From contig CM049317.1 in the NCBI GenBank assembly GCA_026874595.1, forward strand, positions 13,570,882 to 13,634,881: 64,000 nucleotides of DNA, read 5' to 3'. Below the pieces are notes generated by a model that was given only the letters and a program-made list of their open reading frames with translations, was not told the origin of the DNA and searched no databases. The position numbers were made by a program, and so were the translations under genes. This DNA is from Sipunculus nudus. Taxonomy: Eukaryota > Annelida > Sipuncula > Golfingiida > Sipunculidae. Shown piece by piece: positions 4,401-58,900 of this stretch (position 1 is the stretch's first letter; each line of letters begins with the position of its first letter).

Positions 4401-7400
4401 CTTAGCTATTTCAGGACCAGTGTTGGCTAATATGACCATCATGTCTTGTGACCTCTGACCTCATTAAATAGGCAAATTTTACAAAGAATCAACCTCAGGC
4501 AAGTTATTTTGCTTGTTAACATTAATAGCAAATTTCTTCAAAATCAATCAAATTACTGGTTATAACAGCAATACCAGTCTTGTCTGGTGACCTCTGACCT
4601 AATTTAATATGCACCAATTTTGTAGGAATCAAACCCTGGTGGGTCACTTCTTTTGTAAATACTTACAGCTCAAGTAAGTCAAGTTGATTGAAAATCTATT
4701 GAATCTCTGATAAGTTTTAAAAGCAACATCAGAATGGAGTCTCAAGAATGAACTCCTGAAATATGTGTTGATTTAGCAAAGAATCAAACAAATATAAGAC
4801 ACTTTATTGGAACATTCCTCACACAGTGGTTGCACTGCAGTTGTCCCAGAGCATAGAACTGTAATCAGACCAATGAGAGGGTGGCATCACATTGTGCATC
4901 CAGCTCCAATTTTAAACATGTTACACCTGCTCCTGTTGGTCTCATTCTTGACCCTGTGCTAGAACTGGACCAATGACAGCGGTGTCACATGTTAAAAATT
5001 TGAAGCTGAATACAACATGCCATACCACCATCTCATTGTTCTGTTCCTTTCCTGGTGGTGTAACCCAAAGAACCTTGCTATACAAAGCAGCGGTTAAACG
5101 AAGGAGTGTACTTGATTAGTTAATTGTATCCGCCAAAACAGAGTTTTGCGGATACTATGTTTTCAGCTGCACTCCGCCGCCGCGCAAGTGTCCGGAGAAC
5201 TCCTCCGTAACCGCTGGGCGGAATTTTACGAAACCCGGGATAATGTTCGGGTGACATGTGAACTGCTGCAATTTTGTTTTGACCTCTGACCTTTCCTCTG
5301 CTCTCTGCGTCCGTTTGTGCGTCTGTTTCCACACATACACCCACATATCTCGTGAACCGTTTGACGGATCAGGAAATTTTTTTTGCACAAATGTAGCCCT
5401 TGGAGAGCTTTATAACATACACAAAAAATGGTGGCGCCACCTGCAACCATGTTTGCACAGTGTCCATCTGTTCGTCTGCCTTGGGTTAAAATCACTCATA
5501 TCTCTGCAGTGACTTGACTAATTCACCTGAAATTCGGCATGCGTATACATCCTGGATAGCTTTTCTGATTTTATGACAGGTGGCGCCACCTACATTCACG
5601 TTTACGCTGCAGACATCCAAGCTCATATCTCGGGAACCGTTTGACCGATTGGGCCAAAATTTTGCATGTGTATAGATCTCACATAGCTCTTTATCATACG
5701 CAAAACTGGTGGCGCCACCTGCAGCCATTTTTGCACAGCTCCCGTCTGTTTGTCTGCCATGGGATAAAATCACTCATATCGCGGCAGTGGTTTGACATAT
5801 CTGCCTAAAATTTTGCAGGTTTATACATCCCTGACAGCTCTCTTGATTTTATGACAGGTGGCGCCACCTGCATTCTAGTTTATGCAGCAGACATCCAAGC
5901 TCATATCTTGGGAACCGTTTGACCGATTGGGCCAAAGTTTTGCATGTGTATAGTTCTCACATAGCTCTTTATCATACGCAAAATTGGTGGCGCCACCTTC
6001 AACCATTTTTGCACAGCGTCCATCTGTTTGTCTGCCATGGGCTAAAATTACTCATAAACATATAGTGGTTTGACTTATCTGCCTCAAATTTTGCATATGT
6101 ATACAACTTGGATGGCTTTCTGGATTTTGTGGTAGGTGGCGCAACCTACATACACCATTTGGCTGCAGACATCCATGCTAATATGCAACACTTCACTCTA
6201 TTTCCCCTTGCCACTCAATCCATGCCTCACTTCACCCGTTCCACTCTGATTTAGGCGGATACACATAGTCGCTTGTCGACTACCCATATTCTAGTTTCAT
6301 CATGAGTTTCATAAAAACTTATCAAACACCTCACAAATTATCATGACAACACTAAAGGTTAATGGGCAGTTAGATGGACAGAAGCATTGAGGGATGCTGC
6401 CTATACTGTAATACATGCAAACAGGCATATTAAAAAATAATTTTTTGTCAAACTGGTATCACACTGACCTTCAGTGAAGTCCCCTCCTTGTATCATGAAG
6501 TTCTTGATGATGCGGTGGAACGGGGATCCCTGATAGTGAAGTGGTTTACCAGAGATCTTACTCTCCCCAATCTCACCTGTAACCATATACACACGTACAT
6601 TTTTATTATATTACAGCAGTGTGTCAGTTATCCAAAAAACTCAGGGGATAAAGATTTTGTAGGTTTAACCATGACTCCCTTATACCAGATGTTATAAACA
6701 AGAGACCCATGGGTCACGGCGCTCAGCTGATCGTGATTGGACTATAAATGTTTCTCCACTGTGATACTAGGTCGAGTCGATAAAGCTCATGAATATCATG
6801 GACATGTTGGGCTATTATAAAGGAATGTAATGTAATATGTGAGTAAATGATAATGAAATAACCTGACTGATGGATTAATACAGTCAAATATAGTGGTTTA
6901 TTTTTTATTTATTTAGGAGGGGTTGAAAATTGTGATATATTTGAGCAAATATGAATGCAATGACAGCAGTAATAAGCAGTAGTAGAATGATGATAAGGCT
7001 AATCTAAAGTGTATGGTAGTCTGCAAGCTTTCAATTTGACAGATATGATGTTATGATTAACTATGCTGATGAAGTGATTTATGAATTTGTGACTGTATGA
7101 CACAATATCTCTTTAGTCTTGACAAGGTACATTATTGTGATGCCCACTATGTCTACATATTACACAATATTGACATAATTTCTGGCATGTACATAGGTAC
7201 CTATGGACGAATAGTTATACAAAATATTCAAGTATGAATATATCTGATTCATCTTGTTCTTGCTTACTGAGGCTGACTTTGGGATGGGGTTCGGAGAAGG
7301 GAAAAGTGAGGGCAGCACAAAGGTGGATGTAGAAATATTCTATTGTAATGTTTTTCATTTATATAAGAATATGAAAAGCTAAGAGGAAAGGGGCCCTCCT

Positions 7401-13300: not shown

Positions 13301-15686
13301 CAGGTATTTTAGATCTCCTTCGCTTTAACTGCTGCTTTGTATATCAATATTATCCCAGTTTCACCACCAGGGCCAGGCACAGAGCAAAGTATTGTAATCT
13401 GACCAATGAGGGTGTGGTATCACATTGTGCATATAACTCCAATCGCAAGTTTTAAACCTGCCACACCCTGCTCTTGATGGTCTGATTCTTGGCACTGTGC
13501 AAGCCGTGGTGTTGAGACCCCAACAAACAGAGCAGCATTTAAATTTTTAACCAAATGAAATCTTGAATGCCTGCAGTGTATAACCACAGCACAAAGAGAG
13601 ATTACAAATACAGATTCATAAATTACAGTCAAGGTCAAGAGATCCTGAAGAAAACTAGAAGAGGTCCTTTTTGAGGTCTACAAAAAAACAGAAATCAAAT
13701 CTGAGGGGAGAAAATATTGACTACCTCAAAGTTTGGGGTTCACAAAAATCCTAGTTTTTTTTTAAGAATTATCCTTAAAGATCAAGTTCACTGGTTTTTA
13801 ATTCATCTAAGAATTTTGTAGAAAACATTGACAGCATTCACAAAAAAAAATTATTTTGGTTGATTTGACGTTGAAGATAAAGGTCAAGGTCACTGGTTTT
13901 CAAACTTATCTGACAGATTTGAAGAACAAATTTAATTATCAAACTTCACAACATAATACTGAATGGTTCAAGCTAGTGTTCACAAAAAATTTCTATTTTG
14001 GCTGATTTTACCTTGAAGATGAAGGTCAAGGTCATCAGTTTTTAAACACCTCTGTGTTTTGATGGAGATAAGTCACACATCAAATTTCATAAAAATAGAA
14101 TTGACTGGTTCAAAAATTATAGCATTCACAGTATACCTTGGGTTATGTGACCTTGAGGTTTGAGTTTTGTAAATCATCAGAGATTTTGGTAGAAACAATT
14201 CAAATTTCATTGGCAGACAATCTGAAATAAGTACTAGAACACTACTTGTTATGGAACTAGAATACAGGTAGTCAACAAGCGACTATGTGTATCCGCCAAA
14301 ATAAGAGTGGAACGGGTGAAGAGAGGCATGGATTGAGGGGCAAGGGGAAATAGAGTAAGGTGTGTTGCATATTAGCATGGATGTCTGCAGCCGAAATGTG
14401 TATGTTGGTTGAGCATCCTACCACAAAATCCAGAAAGCTGTCCAAGTTGTATACATATGCAAAATTTAAGGCAGATAAGTCAAACCACTACATATATATG
14501 AGCGATTTTATCCCACAGCAGACAAACAGAAGGACTTGTGCAAAAATGGTGGCAGGTGGTGCCACCAATTTTGTGTATGATTAAGAGCTATGTGAGATCT
14601 AAACACATGCAAATTTCAAGGCGATATGTCCAACCAGTCCTGAGATAAAAGCCTGAATGTCTGCAGCATTAACATAAATGTAGGTGGTGCCACCTGCTAA
14701 AAAAATCAAGAAAGTTATCAAAGATGTATAAACATGCAAACTTTTGGAAGATTAGTCAAACCATTACTGACATATGAGTGATTTTAGCCTACGGCAGACA
14801 AACAGACAGACGTTGTGCAAAAATGGTTGCAGTTGGCCCCTCCAGTTTTGTGTATGATAAAGAGCTATGTGATATCTATACACATGCAAATTTTGGCCCA
14901 ATCAGTCATACTGTTCCTGAGATATGAGTTTGGATGTCTGCAGCGTAAACTAGAATGTAGGTGGCACCACCTGTAATAAAAATCAAGAAATCTATCCATG
15001 ATGTATAAACCTGCAAAATTTTAGGCAGATATGCCACCAGTTTTGCGTATGATAAAAAGCTATGTGAAATCTATACACATGGAAATTTTCAGGAAGATAC
15101 GTCAAACAAATCCGGAGATATAATCATCGATGTCTGCAGCATGAACTAGAGTGAAGGTGGCGCCACCTGTCATAAAATCAAGAAAGCTATCCAGGATATA
15201 TAAGCATGCCAAATTTCAGGTGAATTAGTCAAACCAGTGCAGACATATGAGTGATTTAACCCAAGGCAAAGGAACAGATGGACACTGTGCAAACATGGTT
15301 GCAGGTGGCGCCACCATTATTTGTGTATGTTACAAAGCTATCCAAGGGCTACATTTGTGCAAATTTTTTTTCCTGATCGGACAAACAGTTCCCAAGATGT
15401 GTGGGTTTATGTGTGGAAACAGACGCACAAATGGACGCTGGGCAGAGAGGAAAGGTCAGAGGTCAACGCCGATTGGTTAGGCAGCAGTTCACATGTGACC
15501 CGATAATTGGTGTAAGTTTTAGGAAAAATCAGTCCAGTAGTCTCAGAGGAGTTCTCTGGAAACGAACCAAATCTTCGTTTTGGCGGATAAAATTATCTGC
15601 AAACAGCCAGGTACAAATCTTCATATCTCACCTGGTTTTCCTCCGACCTCTAGGTCAAAGAAGCATCGTGGACGCACACCCTCCAT
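1331..15686 (-). CDS. Large nuclear-type cyclophilin (peptidyl-prolyl cis-trans isomerase, PPIG/NKTR-like), seven exons, 3' end beyond the window
   Basis: Join of 15632-15686, 13009-13083, 6469-6576, 4199-4243, 2815-2902, 2143-2172 and 1331-1476 on the minus strand. All introns are GT-AG and all phases match, giving 182 codons plus one base. The product is a full cyclophilin domain: [20 protein letters not shown] at the start, [15 protein letters not shown] (catalytic Arg about residue 65), [40 protein letters not shown] and a closing NCGEL. This enzyme class speeds prolyl isomerisation. The GKPLHYQGS insertion and the His at about 131, where cyclophilin A has the cyclosporin-contacting Trp, match the PPIG/NKTR/Cyp40 group. 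PPIG and NKTR carry a long Arg/Ser-rich tail that binds splicing machinery; here the last exon ends at a donor in phase 1, so a tail probably lies left of the window. I could not find it in 1-1330. The ATG at 15686 sits just before the conserved start. PPIG and NKTR cannot be separated from this part. Confidence 0.93.
2143..2172 (-). CDS. Cyclophilin exon 6 (30-bp micro-exon)
   Basis: Thirty bases between tttcag|TTTAACC and GATGG|gtaagt. Encodes the end of Ile then LTKPAPHLD and two bases of Gly. It is identified by phase and by filling the gap between NGSQFFI and HVVFGQ. It is short enough for automatic predictors to miss. Confidence 0.88.
2815..2902 (-). CDS. Cyclophilin exon 5
   Basis: Acceptor ttgcag|ATGAAG and donor TTCAT|gtaagg. 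Encodes [20 protein letters not shown] and then KDTNGSQFF, plus two bases of the next Ile. Reading through the donor meets a stop at once, so splicing is needed for the open frame. 88 bp, phase 1 in, phase 2 out. Confidence 0.92.
2938..3312 (-). mobile_element. tRNA-derived SINE, diverged copy
   Basis: Matches the 48-kb SINE from the tail (gaggtaaccacctccatgct) through acaggcctggtgactactgc-like sequence to the head (ttgagtcctgtgctcc, gagccagagaagcc). A second partial copy of the middle follows at about 3370-3540. It lies in a cyclophilin intron. Confidence 0.6.
4199..4243 (-). CDS. Cyclophilin exon 4
   Basis: A 45-bp exon between ttgcag|GTAATG and CCAG|gtaagt. Encodes [15 protein letters not shown], the conserved glycine-rich loop. 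Phase 1 in and out. Confidence 0.9.
4440..4720 (+). repeat. Family C fragment (two core units)
   Basis: Two units begin with tgacctctgacct at 4449 and 4588. No terminal hairpin is present, so the copy is truncated. Confidence 0.55.
4800..5115. repeat. Family D-related sequence, truncated
   Basis: Carries gtaatcagaccaatgagagg and cattgtgcatccagctcc, and ends tacaaagcagcggttaaacg, matching family D halves. It stops a few bases before the family B element at 5124. Confidence 0.5.
5124..6294 (+). mobile_element. Family B non-autonomous Helitron/Helentron-like element (HINE), copy 1
   Basis: The 5' end reads TTGTATCCGCCAAAAC after host A. The 3' side has an inverted copy of that motif (ggcggatacac), then a hairpin (GTCG/CGAC type, about 6254-6284) and the terminus CTAG followed by host T. 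The core carries GGTGGCGCCACC at 5430, 5579, 5708, 5857 and 5986, and a one-base variant at 6135. No coding capacity. It lies in the cyclophilin intron between exons 3 and 4, next to family C sequence on the right. Confidence 0.75.
6469..6576 (-). CDS. Cyclophilin exon 3 (catalytic Arg)
   Basis: Acceptor ttacag|GTGAG and donor GAAG|gtcagt. Encodes [18 protein letters not shown] followed by the active-site block [18 protein letters not shown]. Phase 1 in and out; 108 bp. Confidence 0.93.
6697..11791 (+). mobile_element. Family A pearl/HINE-like repeat block in cyclophilin intron 2
   Basis: Starts with the 5' signature acaagagacccatgggtcac at about 6698 and again at 7686. The 3' signature (ACGG-type tract, then actatagctcagatgactta and cagctgagctaaaa) ends at about 9530 and 11790. 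The 5' GCTCAGCTGA and 3' TCAGCTGAGC are inverted copies. Inside are degenerate units of several hundred bases carrying a phrase like ttatgtttgggcccataact near 9136, 10698 and 11389. 7685-9530 looks like one complete element. No credible gene. G-runs occur at about 8676 and at 10283-10317. Confidence 0.65.
10283..10317. repeat. 35-base G homopolymer
   Basis: Uninterrupted G-run inside the family A block; the related segment at 56587 has a shorter run. Other runs of 12 or more lie near 8676, 23626, 27755, 28937, 57969 and 62729, and C-runs near 2537, 18184, 23697 and 24414. The frames they create (poly-Gly, poly-Pro) are not genes. Confidence 0.9.
11800..13008. other. Cyclophilin intron 2, AT-rich, nothing recognised
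   Basis: No repeat family boundary, RNA gene or credible exon seen between the family A block and exon 2. Confidence 0.6.
13009..13083 (-). CDS. Cyclophilin exon 2
   Basis: Acceptor cacag|CGGG and donor ACAG|gtagga. Encodes the second and third strands and first helix, including [19 protein letters not shown]. Phase 1 in and phase 1 out; 75 bp. Confidence 0.9.
13295..13579. mobile_element. Family D fold-back MITE
   Basis: Bounded by inverted ACACTGCAGG / CCTGCAGTGT between tat and ata. The interior (tttaactgctgctttgtata, gtaatctgaccaatgag) recurs in the copies at 42290 and, less complete, at about 4800-5100 and 62330-62560. Non-coding. It lies in cyclophilin intron 1. Confidence 0.6.
14257..15595 (-). 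mobile_element. Family B Helitron-like element, copy 2
   Basis: Same structure in opposite orientation: CTAG terminus at 14257-14260, the GTAGTC...GACTAT hairpin, gtatccgccaaaat, a degenerate core with several ggtggygccacc sites, and the 5' end ttggcggataaaatt near 15595. It ends 36 bp from the exon 1 donor of the cyclophilin gene. It is more diverged than copies 1 and 3, so probably older. Confidence 0.72.
15632..15686 (-). CDS. Cyclophilin exon 1 (start codon)
   Basis: Encodes [18 protein letters not shown] plus one base of the next codon. The donor reads CAG|gtgaga. The right boundary given is the ATG; the 5' UTR extends further right but its end is not visible. A Helitron-like element ends only 36 bp inside the following intron. 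Confidence 0.9.
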
Positions 15687-51130: not shown

Positions 51131-51753
51131 AAACAAGGGACCCATGGGTCACGTCGCTCAGCTGAATTTTGGAAAATATTAGTAACTGCAAAATATTTTT
51201 TATTTCTTATGGTTTTTCCATGTATATTACAATTTAAAAAGCTAAGAGAAAATAGCCCAGCTTAAATGAAACTCTGTAAATTATAGAATAATGGACATGA
51301 GCTAAAGCATATGGACTGTGTAATAAATGAAACCTTTGGCCTGACACCATTTAGTGTTGCACCAAAGGAAACAAGGGACCTATGGGTCACGGCGCTCAGC
51401 TGTTATATAAGATAAAAAAATATGATTTTGAAATGAGGCACATGCTGGTTTTGTGTGGAAATAAATATAAGCTGTATTATGAGTTGTTAGTGTTAAGCTT
51501 ATGTATGATTTTGATAGTTTCTTTGGAGACAGGGAAGAGATTGATTTCATTTATTTTATTAACAAATGGAGTGCCACTGTCATACAGATTTTGACTTGGC
51601 CATATAACTGATAAGCAGCATATATAAGATAAAGAGTTTAACTATTTATTAAAATTTAAAAACAAATATTGTGCCAAATATAATTTTTATTAAAAATAAT
51701 AAGAGAATCATATGATTTTTTTCAATAAAATATAACTGAAATGATTATTAAAA
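51131..51753 (+). mobile_element. Family A fragments left of the Helitron-like insertion
   Basis: Two 5' signatures occur close together, acaagggacccatgggtcac near 51133 and acaagggacctatgggtcac near 51371. The second starts a unit repeated from 53612. Confidence 0.65.
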
Positions 51754-52932
51754 CTAGAATACGGGTAGTCGACAAGCGACTACATGTATCCGCCTAAATC
51801 AGAGTGGAACGGGTGAAGTGAGGCATGGATTGAGTGGCAAGGGGAAATAGAGTGAAGTGTTGCATATTAGCATGGATGTCTGCAGCCAAATTGTGTATGT
51901 AGGTTGGCCCCCCTACCACAAAATCCAGAAAGCCGTCCAAGTTGTATACATATGCAAAATTTAAGGCAGATAAGTCAAACCACTACATGTATATGAGTGA
52001 TTTTAGCCCGTGGCAGACAAACAGATGGACGCAGAGCAAAAATGGTTGCAGGTGGCGCCACCAGTTTTGCGTATGATAAAGAGCTATGTGAGAACTATAC
52101 ACATGCAAAACTTTGGCCCAATTGGTCAAACGGTTCCCAAGATATGAGCTTTGATGTCTGCTGCATAAACTAGAATGCAGGTGGCGCCACCTGTCATAAA
52201 ATCAAGAGAGCTGTCAGAGATGTATAAACCTGCAAAATTTTAGGCAGATATGTCAAACCACTGCCGAGATATGAGTGATTTTATCCCATGGCAGAAAAAC
52301 AGACGGGAGCAGTGCAAAAATGGCTGCAGTTGGCGTCACCAGTTTTGCGTATGATAAAGAGCTATGTGTGATCTATACACATGCAAAATTTTGGCCGAAT
52401 CAGTCAAATGGTTCCCAAGATATGAGCTTGGATGTCTGCAGCGTAAAAGTGAATGTAGGTGGCACCACCTGTCATAAAATCAGAAAAGCTATCCAGGATG
52501 TATACGCATGCCGAATTTCAGGTGAATTACTAGTCAAGTCACTGCAGAGATATGAGTGATTTAAACCCAAGGCAGAAGAACAGATGGACACTGTGCAAAC
52601 ATGGTTGCAGGTGGCGCCACCATTTTTTGTGTATGTTATAAAGCTCTCCAAGGGCTACATTTGTGCAAGAAAATTTTCCAGATCGGTCAAACTGTTCCCG
52701 AGATATGTGGGTTTATGTGTGGAAACAGACGCACAAACGGACGCAGAGTGCAGAGGAAAGGTCAGATGTCAAAACAAAATCGGGGCGCAGCAGTTCACAT
52801 GTGGCCCGAACATAATCCCGGGTTTCGTAAAATTCCGCCTAGCGGTTACAGAGTTCTCCGGACAGCTACGCCACGGCGGCGGCGGTGGGCTGAAAACATA
52901 GTATCCGCAAAACTCTGTTTTGGGGGATACAA
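51754..52932 (-). mobile_element. Family B Helitron-like element, copy 3, with paralogous empty site
   Basis: CTAG terminus at 51754-51757, a perfect 7-bp-stem hairpin (gtagtcg acaag cgactac) and the other end at gggggatacaa|t. Palindrome sites at 52051, 52180, 52329 (variant), 52458 (variant) and 52610. The flanking sequence is duplicated near 53985 without the insertion, which places the element exactly between A and T with no target duplication. Confidence 0.8.
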
Positions 52933-55900
52933 TAATATTATAGAATATATTCATGAATGCATTCATGAATACATTTTGAAAGTATTTGCACTGGTATTCA
53001 AATACTTTCATTTTTACCTGAATTCCCATTCTTATGCAAGAAATTTTATAATGGAGTACATATTCATATTCATATTCATATACATTTGCCAAGTATTCGC
53101 ACCATGTCTGGTATTTATTCAGTTTTAGCCAAACAATGATGTTGAGAAACCAGAATATAAACAAAGGACCCATGGGTCACGACAACCAGCTTAAGTTTGA
53201 AATTTTTGCAAATGCAAAATATAAAAAATATTCTATTGTAATGTTTTTTATTTATATAAGCATATGAGAAGCTAAGAGGAAAGGGCCCTCCTACTTGGTT
53301 ATAGTAAAGTTCTCAATATATGATTGCAAACTAATACTCTGACAAGACTGTCATGAAGAAAAACAGTAAAAGTTTTGAGATACTGTGATGCAAATGAAAA
53401 ATTTGCAGATGGACAGGCAAGTGGACAGAATGGACTTATACCTTCATTTCACTTTCAAGGGAATAATGCATTTAAGTTTATATATAACAACATGGCATCT
53501 ACAAAATTATTCCTTGAATCCCTATTAAAACGTTTTGCACATTGGAGTTTTCAGTACATGCTTAATTTTATTCACCGAAATAAAATAAAAGATTCAGTAC
53601 ATTTGATAAAATAACAAGGGACCTATGGGTCACGACGCTCAGCTGTTATATATGATTAAAAATATTATTTAGAAATGAGGCACATGCTGGTTTTGTGTGG
53701 TAATAAATATAAGCTGTATTATGAGTTGTTGTTGTTTAGCTTGTGTATGATTTTGATAGTACCTTTGGAGACAGGGAAGAGGATCGATTTCATTTATTTT
53801 ATTAACAAATGGAGTACTATTGTCACACAGATTTTGACTTGGCCATATAACTTATAAGCAGAATATATAATATAAGGGTTTAACTATTAAATAAAAAAGT
53901 TACAAATATTGTCCCAAATATAATTTTTATTAAAAATAATAAGAGAATCATGATTTTTTAAAATGAAATATAACTGAAATGATTATTAAAATGATATTAA
54001 AGAATATATTCATGAATGCATTCATGAATACATTTTGAAAGTATTTGCACTGGTATTCATATACTTTCATTTTTACCTGAATTCAAATTCTTTATGCAAG
54101 AAATTTTATAATGGAGTACATAATCATATTCGTATTTAAATACAATTACAAAGTATTCGCACCATGTCTGGTATTTATTCAGTTTTCACCAAACAATGAT
54201 GTTGAGAATCCAGAATATACAAAATTCACACATTTAAACAATGATCATAAGTACCTGGTTTTATGGCTTTTATTTATATTAAAAAATAACTGTAATAGAT
54301 TCTTTTTGGACTAATTTCACATCAATGTACACACTAGACACAGTAGGAATCTAGATTAATATTATCCACTGCATCTTTGTCTATCATTAATTTCCATCAT
54401 ATGATCCCTAATGATTAGTAATGAATGATATGATTTACTTCTTTATCATTAAAATTGAACTGAAAAATACCATAGGTGACTGCATGGTGTTATTTGGAAT
54501 ACCTGACATTCTATCCATCGATACAAGATTCTTATATCATCAGTAACTGCAAGTTAATTTCCTGTTATTATAAACTAACAAATTCCTTTTCTATTTTTCT
54601 TTAATTTTTTATTAAAAAACCAATAAAAATTTATTAATTTATTGTTTATTGTTATGAAGTTGGTTAAAACTACTAGATGAGTTGGGTTGGACACCTGGAT
54701 CAACTGTGGCTGGCCATAAGCTGCCTGGATTCCGGTGTATGCCTCGCCTCAAGCATGCATAATTTGCTGAAAGTTCAACACGGTCAACATACAGGTGACT
54801 CAAGAGGGGCTTGAGAGAGCCAAAGTCTGACAGGGTCTCATAAAACATTAATAAAAGCTACAATTTTTGGCCAATTATTTTTCAGCTTTCTAAATTTAAA
54901 AGCTGAAATCCTTATGTGTGCATGATATGAAAATTATATCAACAGTGCTCACAGGAAACAAACGTGCCATGGTCAAAGTTGGGCAAAATTTAAGTTTCTA
55001 ATTTTACATTTATACTAATAACTTATAAAATTTGATAAATTCATAACTAATTTTGGGTATTCAATTGAATCTTGATTAAATAATGTTACATTCCTGACAA
55101 AAAATCTCTAGCTTCAGCAATCTCCTTTTTAAGGGAGTAAATATATTTCTTGATTCTTTACAAAGTGCATTATGTTTGGGCCCTAATTTAAAACAAATAC
55201 GCAATACTGATATCATTCTGGCATGTGCATAGAGAATGAAAAATATGTATATTATTTATGAAGTCAGATCAGTGGTTTTGATATTAGGCAGTCTTGAAGT
55301 GTAACAATGGGTTTTTAATGGAAAAATGAAGTTTTTCAATAATATCTTGAAGGTATTAAGTCCTAGTGACCAAATTCTTGGCATGGTTGGGGATTTTGGA
55401 GACATCTAGCTGTATGCCGAATTTAAGGAACTAAGAGCTGAAGCTGGGGAGCTGAGCTCTTGCAAACTGCATAACACTAGCTTGATGAAAAAAATATGTT
55501 ACATGGTGCTTGAAAACCTGAATAAAATCTACAGTTTTTGATCAACTGGTTTCAAATTTTTGGTGTTAACAGTTGAAAAGGTAGCAAAAACATGCTGTGA
55601 AAATTAAATCCACAGTACTTATGGGAAAAAAACGTGCCATGGTCAAAGTTGGGCAAAATTTAAGGTACCAATTTTTTATTTTTATTAATATTTTAAAAAA
55701 TTTAAAAGATTTTGATCTAATTTTGGGTATACAATTTAATTTTGATTTATTAAAGTTATATTACTGGAAAAAAGGTCCATAGCTTTAACATGTTTTGTGT
55801 TAAGTGATCAAATATCTTTCCTGATTTTTTACAAAATGCATTATGTTTGGGTCCATAACTTTTTTAAATTATATAATACAGACATAATTTCTTGAATGTA

Positions 55901-58900
55901 CATAGGAACTATATAGAGGAATATTTATGGTAAATATGAGGAAAAACAGATGAGTGGTTTTGATATTAGGCAGTCCTGAAGTGTGAAAATAGGTTTTTAA
56001 TAAAAAATTGAGGTTTTTCCTTAATTTCTCAAAGGAACGAAGTCGAAAAGACCCAGTTTTCGGCTTGGTAGGAGATCTTGGGGACATCTAACATTATGCC
56101 GAATTTTGGATTCCTAGGTCCTACGGTTTCAAAACGTGCCACATCTACGGACGGACGGACGGACGGACGGACGGACGGACGGACGGACGGACAGACGGAC
56201 GGACGACGGACAATGGACCACGACTATAGCTCAGATGACTTATAGTCAGCTGAGCTAAAAACATCTTTTCAAATAAAGTATACACACTGTTGGTTGAATG
56301 AGGGACAAACAATATCATTATGCTAATTACAATCTCAGCTATAATTAATTACTGGAATTAATAGTCAATTTCACACCTGGTGAAGTTTTACTCTTCTGAT
56401 GTAAAGCATTACTTATCTGATGAACATCCACACTTCCATAGCAATACATCACTTTGTGGACACAATTAAATGTGCACTTTAATCATTGTAACCCTGGTAG
56501 TACAATACAAAATCTAAAATGTAGCATGTCCAAGAATAAAATAAAATACAGAAAATTATAACATTCATCTAGTTTATGCACCAGCTGGGGGGGGGGGGGG
56601 GGTGAGTGCAGGGAAGCCTGCTAGTAGTGGCCAAGCTGGGCCAAGGCAAGCTGCCTGGGGTGGGTTACATTATGCAAGTGAAGGCTGTACTACTAGGTGG
56701 GCCAGATGTAAACAACACTTGACATGGTGTATGAAAACTTGAATAAAAGCTACTCTTTTCAAACAATTTCTTTGAAATTTCAGATTTTTAAAAGATTAAA
56801 TCCTTATGTATATATGCTGTGAAAATAAAATCAACAGTACTTACAGGGAAAAAACGTGCCACTGCCAAATTTAAAATTTGGACAAAATTTAAGGTATTGA
56901 TTTTTTATTTATGCTAATAACTTGAACAATTTGCAAAATTCAGATCTCATTTTGGGTAAACAATTGAATCTTGATTAAATAAAGTTATATTCCTGAAAAA
57001 AGTCTCCAGCTTCAGCAATTCTCATGTTAAGTGAGCAAATATATTTCCTGATTTTTAAAAAATTGCATTATATTTGGGCCTATAACTTCAAAATGATACC
57101 CAATACTGACCTAATTTTTGGTATGTGCACAGAAAATGTATGGAAGAATATGAATACTAAATCTGATCAAAAACAGATCAGTTGTTTTGATATTAGGCAG
57201 CCTTGAAGTGTAACATTGGCTTTTTTTATGGAAAACAGAGGTTTTTCCTTAATATCTCGAAGGAACGAAGTTCTAATGACCCAATTTTTGGTATGGTAGG
57301 AGATTTTGGGGACATCTAATGGTATGCAGAATTTTGGATTCGTAGGTCCAACAGTTTTAAAACGTGCCCTGTTAACGGCCGGACGGCCGACGGACAAAGG
57401 ACCACAACTATAGCTCAGATGACTTATAGTCAGCTGAGCTAAAGATGGGCCTACAGTAAGTGTCATATAAAAATTCCATTTCATAAACAAATAATGTGTG
57501 AAGGTAATTAAGTTTTCAAAAGTTAAATATATGGCCATATGAGTTAAATGTTAATCCCACAAAGTTTGACCAATATTCCTAATTTTAAAAACTAGGTTTA
57601 ACAGTGTTATTTATACCTAGGCCCCGCCAACTTTAAGAGATATGAATGAAATGCTACCAAGTATTTATATCTTCTTAAATCTTGTCAGTTAGCACTTACA
57701 TTAGGTCCTAATATTTTACCATATTTGAATATTAGGATTAAATTCCTGAACATTTTTTTCTTTAATAAAAATCAAAATTGTCCAAGTCTCAACAAAAAGA
57801 ATTTTTAACATTAAAATTATAAGCTTTGTCTTGTATATTAGTCCTGTGTATCAAAGCGGTGGTTCAGGGAAGGGTCTCTGTTGTTACTGTTCATCGCTGA
57901 AAAAATGTGAAATTATAAGATTCATCTTGTTTAGAGTACAGGTCTGTCAACAGAATGTGGTGGTGTTGGGGGGGGGGGGGGGGGGGGGAGAGAAAGGCTC
58001 CCTGTGGTATTTATGCTGGCAGCCTGATCAAGCTCAACAAGAGAAATGGCTTGCCCAAGTGATGGGATTACATAACAGCCTGGGGAGTATAGAGAGTTAC
58101 ATGGAATGACCTACAGTGACCTCAGTGGACTGCTTGACAATGTAAGGGAATACAACAAGAGCCTCCAAACAATTCAATAACTAGCCTAATTTTGCAGCTT
58201 TTATTTTTCAAATTTCAGATTTTAACAGATTAAATCCTTGTGTACATACTGTGAAAATAACATCCACAGTACTTGCAGGAAAAAATCGTGCCGTGGCGAA
58301 AGTTGGGCAAAATTTAAGGCACTGATTTTATATTTATGCTAATAACTTAAAAATTGCAAATTTCAGATCTAATTTTCGGTATACAATTGAATCTTGATTA
58401 AATGATGTTATATTCCTGAAAAAAAGTCTCAGCCATTCTTATGTTAAGTGAGTAAATATATATCCTGATTTTTTACAAGGTGCATTATGTTTGGGCCTAT
58501 AACTTCAACAAATTATGCAATACTGACCTAAATTTTGGTATGTACATAGGAAATGTATGGAAGAATATGAATATTTACAATTACATCTAACATTATGCCA
58601 ATTTTTGGATTACCAGGTAAACAAAAGTAGGGTCATGATGCTAGAAAATACAAATACATTAATCTTCAAAAAAACTTCAATAGCTAGACTTTTTTAAGCT
58701 TATACTTTCAAATTCAAAATTCATCAGATTAAATCCATATGTAAACTGGCTGTGAAAATTAAATCAAATGTACTTAAAAGGAAAAAGTGCCATGGTCAAA
58801 TTTAGGCAAAATTTAAGGTACCAATTTTTTATTTTTGCTAATATTTAAAAAAATTTCACAGATTTTGATCTGATTTTGGGTATACAATTTAATTTTGATT

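Follow-up and report, generated by a model that had tools for sequence, protein, structure and literature searches.

Non-autonomous Helentrons of the HINE/DINE-1 type (PMC4067079) are described as carrying a subterminal inverted repeat (subTIR) 2 nt from the 5′ end, a complementary inverted repeat, a 3′ subTIR and a 3′ palindrome, with a tandem core, a TT target, no long target duplication and no coding capacity. All of these features are present in the repeat family from Sipunculus nudus described here, family B; unlike HINE/DINE-1 as described there, family B ends in CTAG and has a longer target preference, TNATT. Compared by description only, Cg_HINE of the Pacific oyster (PMC7492417) also has two terminal modules flanking a tandem, satellite-like core, the combination of inverted repeat, subTIR and palindrome, and a T-rich target, and in that account its partner is likewise unresolved. 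Cg_HINE contains a microsatellite, whereas family B has only a short (CGG)4 run (52874-52885 of copy W3), and TRF reported no microsatellite in this copy.

Three further groups share parts of this plan. Oyster Helitron-like elements with TC/CTAG ends, of which 257 of 751 have subTIRs (PMC7992393), resemble family B in the 3′ CTAG and the subTIRs, some with a 5′ inverted repeat; in that study their 5′ end is TC and no autonomous elements were detected, whereas S. nudus has a 5′ TT and autonomous-type Helentrons. FoHeli1 and FoHeli2 of Fusarium oxysporum (PMC5148889) have hairpins at both ends and asymmetric inverted repeats, as in family B, and a target given as TNAT followed by T in a figure legend and by A in the text, to be compared with TNATT; unlike family B they end in ATTTT and encode a Rep/helicase, and the same source reports that no endonuclease was found in fungal elements of this kind. 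Hel-2 of Lepidoptera (PMC4344730) is non-autonomous and has a 3′ CTAG, a 3′ hairpin, a 5′ inverted repeat and subterminal inverted repeats, all as in family B, but differs in its 5′ TC, its 250-bp consensus and its occurrence in insects and their viruses. The 29-base family B end was absent from the viral contigs we scanned, a set from which records near the S. nudus genome may be excluded. Definitions of the Helitron and Helentron classes used below follow the descriptions in PMC4067079, PMC3627910, PMC7492417 and PMC5148889.

The window is the whole stretch of 64,000 nucleotides analyzed (assembly GCA_026874595.1, contig CM049317.1, positions 13,570,882 to 13,634,881), and it holds three copies of family B, W1 to W3 (Table 1). 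In a global alignment of 51431-53170 with 53673-54233, W3 appears as one gap of 1,179 bp with matching flanks on both sides, which confirms the insertion and the paralogous empty site proposed in the initial annotation. The empty site is paralogous since the host segment around W3 is itself a repeat (blocks D7, D11, D13, D14 and D18, at 89-98% identity). Since CTAG lies at the left of W3 on the + strand, the element orientation is that of the minus strand. The empty site contains four A's (TTATTAAAATGATATT), the left flank of W3 ends in AAAA and the right end of the element reads ...GATACAA, i.e., it ends in AA; there are thus three equivalent junction placements (A|TT, AT|T and ATT| in element orientation), and a 2-bp AA/TT duplication looks identical to them. 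The length of the insertion is certain, and its placement exactly between A and T, as first annotated, is not, because the junction slides over 2 bp. The accompanying claim of no target duplication holds beyond 2 bp, with a 2-bp TT duplication fitting equally well.

Table 1. Family B copies, terminal features of copy W3 and the paralogous empty site (window coordinates)
Feature	Position	Strand	Remark
Family B copy W1	5124..6294	+	93.9% identical to W3
Family B copy W2	14257..15503	-	84% identity to W3 across the part that BLAST covered; altered 5′ end
Family B HINE copy W3 (very probable class), 1,179 bp	51754..52932	-	Empty-site alignment and genome-wide ends
3′ terminus CTAG, then host TT	51754..51757	-	TT in 97/100 copies among the matches listed
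3′ hairpin, 7-bp perfect stem, 5-nt loop	51765..51783	-	11 nt from 3′ end
3′ subterminal inverted repeat GGCGGATAC	51786..51798	-	Just upstream of 3′ hairpin, 32 nt from 3′ end
Central tandem array, 278-bp period, 2.8 copies	51864..52635	.	
5′ hairpin	52901..52930	-	5′ subterminal inverted repeat (52918-52930) and complementary inverted repeat
5′ terminal TT (AA on +)	52931..52932	-	Element-owned or target-derived, not separable
Paralogous empty site	53952..54020	.	Junction after 53989, 53990 or 53991; slides over 2 bp

Read on the minus strand, W3 consists of TT, the 5′ hairpin, the tandem array, the 3′ subterminal repeat and the 3′ hairpin (GTAGTCG-ACAAG-CGACTAC, with a perfect stem), then 11 bases whose last four are CTAG, and host TT, so that its ends are TT-GTATCC...CTAG. 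The 5′ end of the family is TT rather than TC (TTGTATCC), and the 5′ subterminal repeat, located 2 nt from the end in the genome copies, reads GTATCCGCCAAAA, with one change in W3 (GTATCCCCCAAAA). GGTGGC(G/A)CCACC palindromes occur in the central array at 52051, 52180, 52458 and 52610. Both ends fold better than most shuffled sequences, with z-scores of -3.91 for the 51-nt 5′ end and -2.80 for the 47-nt 3′ end, and with 1/200 and 2/200 shuffles, respectively, folding as well. Family B has no coding capacity, its longest stop-to-stop stretch being 122 aa.

This anatomy places family B, very probably, among the non-autonomous Helentrons (HINEs) of the Helitron2 group. HINEs are recognized by a 5′ subTIR that lies 0-4 nt inside the 5′ end and forms a 5′ hairpin with its complementary inverted repeat, by a 3′ subTIR upstream of the 3′ hairpin at about 20-60 nt from the 3′ end, and by insertion at TT, all of which are found here. 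Two features of the sequence speak against this class, i.e., the 3′ CTAG, which is the classical Helitron motif, and the ambiguity of the TT, which leaves open a formal TT duplication that is unexpected in Helentrons. Membership of the Helitron superfamily, as first annotated, is upheld by the CTAG end beside a perfect hairpin and by a duplication of at most 2 bp. The more specific view of that annotation, that this is a non-autonomous Helitron of the canonical (Helitron1) type with its insertion point between A and T, draws on the same CTAG beside the hairpin (a CTRR end with the hairpin 11 nt upstream, where canonical elements have about 10-12 nt), on the T after CTAG, on the A before the 5′ TT and on the empty site. 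We consider it very unlikely, since family B has TT in place of the canonical 5′ TC, since canonical Helitrons lack the 5′ hairpin and terminal inverted repeats present here, since the subterminal inverted repeats and the TNATT target are Helitron2/Helentron features, and since the four long Rep frames scanned in this genome carry Helentron-type endonuclease matches, one of them below the cut-off. Features of two described branches meet at the ends of family B, a new family within a known class.

Family B is very abundant in the genome. With up to three mismatches allowed, its 30-base left end was matched at 14,314 genome places and the reversed control at none, an abundance far beyond chance. 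Among 18 loci fetched by one end, the expected opposite end was present in 12 (two being the window copy itself), and it was not seen within roughly 3.1 kb in each of the other six (L001, L005, L009, L013, L014 and L018). Where both ends could be read, the genome copies therefore did not show the differing ends that the initial annotation named as refuting it. The 13 copies with both ends measure 906-1,777 bp, with a mean of 1,286 bp to which short fetched stretches contribute a bias toward short copies; if all 14,314 places were copies of this mean length, the family would by extrapolation occupy about 18 Mb, or 1.3% of the genome. At least 13 other copies match W3 without a single difference along the 107-bp 3′ end, which suggests a recent spread. 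In W1 and W2 the CTAG is likewise followed by TT in element orientation, in agreement with the annotation that the other window copies end in CTAG and then T.

These copies define the target. The left ends listed were required to match the end exactly, were chosen otherwise only for an A nine bases out and all lie on contig C1; in 97 of 100 among the matches listed AA precedes CTAG, which is host TT after CTAG in element orientation. Of 100 right ends among the matches listed, again all on C1, 23 have the flank AATGATTGT (one as ATTGATTGT); these were treated as a captured form and excluded. Of the remaining 77, 71 start with AAT and 69 read AATNA on the + strand. The target of family B is therefore TNATT in element orientation, with TAATT the commonest form. 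Genome-wide, only 16 places combine an exact end with T at -4 and any base except A at -1, and all of them keep A at -2; these look like later point mutations, and they do not tell a TT duplication apart from a TT that belongs to the element.

To find further empty sites we joined the flanks of the 13 copies and searched the genome once with the joined flanks. Two of these (L010 and L012) had matches running through the join, judged by lengths and identities (85-98%) and not by letters: among the matches listed, L010 had 51, of which 38 have equal query and genome lengths and 13 a small net difference, and L012 had four, three with equal lengths. The other 11 had none among the matches listed, which does not count against empty sites at those loci. 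If they are as they seem, the L010 and L012 targets held AA once, with AA on both sides in the filled copies. The target duplication is at most 2 bp, in W3 by alignment and in L010 and L012 by equal lengths, and these two bases are not assignable.

A cut-and-paste DNA transposon or MITE that has imperfect inverted ends and duplicates 2 bp (TT) on insertion would fit the W3 empty site and the two through-matched flanks equally well. We regard this origin as extremely unlikely for a family whose subterminal inverted repeats are asymmetric (2 nt from one end and 32 nt from the other) and which has hairpins at both ends. One copy, whose ends were paired by position and strand, has GA on the CTAG side (left end C1:1230890) and AA on the other (right end C1:1229191), which also argues against it, although a later mutation would give the same pattern.

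In the three captured-form loci read (L032, L033 and L034, on C1), the family B 5′ end and tandem units are embedded in a larger repeat. This repeat starts with (A)ACAAGGCCTACAGGCCTAATGCGAACC or a similar sequence, which resembles another HINE 3′ end (...CTTGTT, on the other strand), and it goes on with related units of the GGTGGC type. This extension has 2,973 first-look candidates, of which 40 were scored. Four units in the window, at 51132, 51370, 53160 and 53613, begin AACAA(G/A)GGACC(C/T)ATGGGTCACG, a sequence that on the minus strand is similar to the 3′ end of the L028 and L031 Helentrons (CAGCTGAGCGCCGTGACCCATGGGTCCCTTGT in L031). The segment containing the empty site thus seems to be part of a second HINE family, arranged partly head-to-tail, that was invaded by family B. 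Just past the empty site, the window contains diverged direct repeats (54828-57443) with spacings of about 670-682 and 1,227-1,229 bp.

The same genome encodes proteins of the type such an element would depend on. A search with the PF14214 profile gave at least 143 Rep matches (best 150 of 195 candidates scored). Four Rep frames (L027-L030) of 2,235-2,426 aa contain DUF6570, Helitron_like_N, PIF1 and a C-terminal endonuclease match, the last falling short of a Pfam cut-off in L028 and exceeding one in the other three, together with OTU (L027 and L030) or Herpes_teg_N (L028 and L029) domains; on these predicted domains they are classed as Helentrons. An inverted-repeat scan of L027-L031 showed no 5′ inverted repeats in stretches that are perhaps too short. 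The distance from the Rep end to the stop, 3.66-3.69 kb in L027-L030, guided which downstream stretches were fetched. We analyzed 25 stretches downstream of Rep loci and 20 further loci (one a 6-kb stretch around a Rep fragment), and located 3′ ends by the break in homology between copies in seven of these 45. L053 and L055 end in a hairpin and CTAG, followed in both by TTT; L028, L051, L052 and L031 end in a CCCATGGG-type hairpin (with one change in L051) and CTTG, followed by T; and L048 ends in CTAG. One more candidate 3′ end, in L054, comes from the hairpin scan only. The located ends have the form CT(A/T)G with a T after it, which suggests CTWG in place of the CTRR rule in these families.

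The L053 5′ end, ATGCCCCCGC, lies in a hairpin, with the flanks of the two copies diverging just upstream of TATTTTT, and its 3′ subterminal repeat, GCGGGGGCAT, is followed by the hairpin and CTAG, the two ends lying 12.0 kb apart. L053 and L055 therefore have the terminal plan of family B with different sequences. The frame is broken in this copy of L053, which retains Helitron_like_N (E 4.4e-27) and PIF1 (E 5.7e-24) domains and a weak endonuclease match (E 0.0013, below cut-off). When the L027 protein was compared with L053 by tblastn, residues 1091-2225 of 2,235 aligned in one frame at 35% identity, across two stops, one of them within the endonuclease part. In addition, a 180-bp x 6.5 tandem array lies near the L053 5′ end (L081/L079), and tandem units of about 320 bp, inferred from shifted matches, lie downstream of the Rep frames in L037, L045, L046 and L049. 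Tandem arrays of autonomous-type Helentrons are a possible source of HINE cores.

L053 also bears on the reading of family B as a Helitron-Helentron intermediate, i.e., a proto-Helentron-like element with 5′ TT, 3′ CTAG and A|T insertion, mobilized by a Rep/helicase without endonuclease. Such an intermediate overlaps with a HINE in anatomy and differs in its partner. The 5′ TT and 3′ CTAG of family B agree with the ends of Phytophthora proto-Helentrons, as described for proto-Helentron-Pi (PMC4067079), and oyster elements mixing subTIRs and CTAG have been called possible intermediates (PMC7992393). L053, a Helentron of the same plan, has endonuclease similarity, weak and below the cut-off as it is, so CTAG and subTIRs need no endonuclease-free lineage, and we consider the intermediate improbable.

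The initial annotation anticipated a Rep/helicase source element sharing the 3′ hairpin, and none was found: the family B 3′ end was in 0 of the 45 Rep-linked stretches, in which an element end was located in only seven, plus the L054 candidate. The best score for the 41-nt family B 3′ end was 22/82 in sense and 26/82 in antisense, and blastn with the whole element (E up to 0.1) gave only matches of 17-20 bp, in L053. The L037, L045, L046 and L049 stretches run on in tandem repeats. This result speaks against the HINE assignment, although, with no element end located in most of the stretches, the search may have overlooked an autonomous partner that has the ends of family B.

Within the HINE assignment, family B most likely spreads by rolling-circle copying. 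A Rep protein supplied in trans would nick the 5′ end (TT-GTATCC), helicase-driven rolling-circle synthesis would copy or displace one strand, the 3′ subterminal repeat and hairpin would define CTAG as the end, and a TNATT target would receive the product with a duplication of at most 2 bp. For Helitron2, the 5′ and 3′ subterminal repeats have been proposed to pair with each other during termination (PMC3627910). Circular intermediates have been reported for a Fusarium Helitron (PMC5148889).

Helitrons as a class account for 240 Mb, or 16.83%, of the S. nudus genome (PMC10212961, Table 6). One abundant S. nudus Helitron family now has its ends, its target and its branch. The ambiguity of the junction also carries a caution, in that single empty sites are insufficient for calling an A|T insertion. 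Whether elements with subTIRs and CTAG are Helitron/Helentron intermediates was left open in PMC7992393, and the combination of endonuclease similarity with CTAG and subTIRs in L053 bears directly on that question, hinting that CTAG and subTIRs may occur on endonuclease-bearing Helentrons. Tentatively, and with more doubt than confidence, Helitron-type ends (CTAG then T, with A before the 5′ TT) joined to Helentron subTIRs and hairpins could represent a standing animal lineage of endonuclease-bearing Helentrons, and no transitional relic. If this were true, recognition of TNATT, common to the fungal FoHeli1 and FoHeli2, would be an ancestral trait of the Helitron2 group, and the division into A|T and T|T insertion sites would be an artefact of how the TT is assigned.
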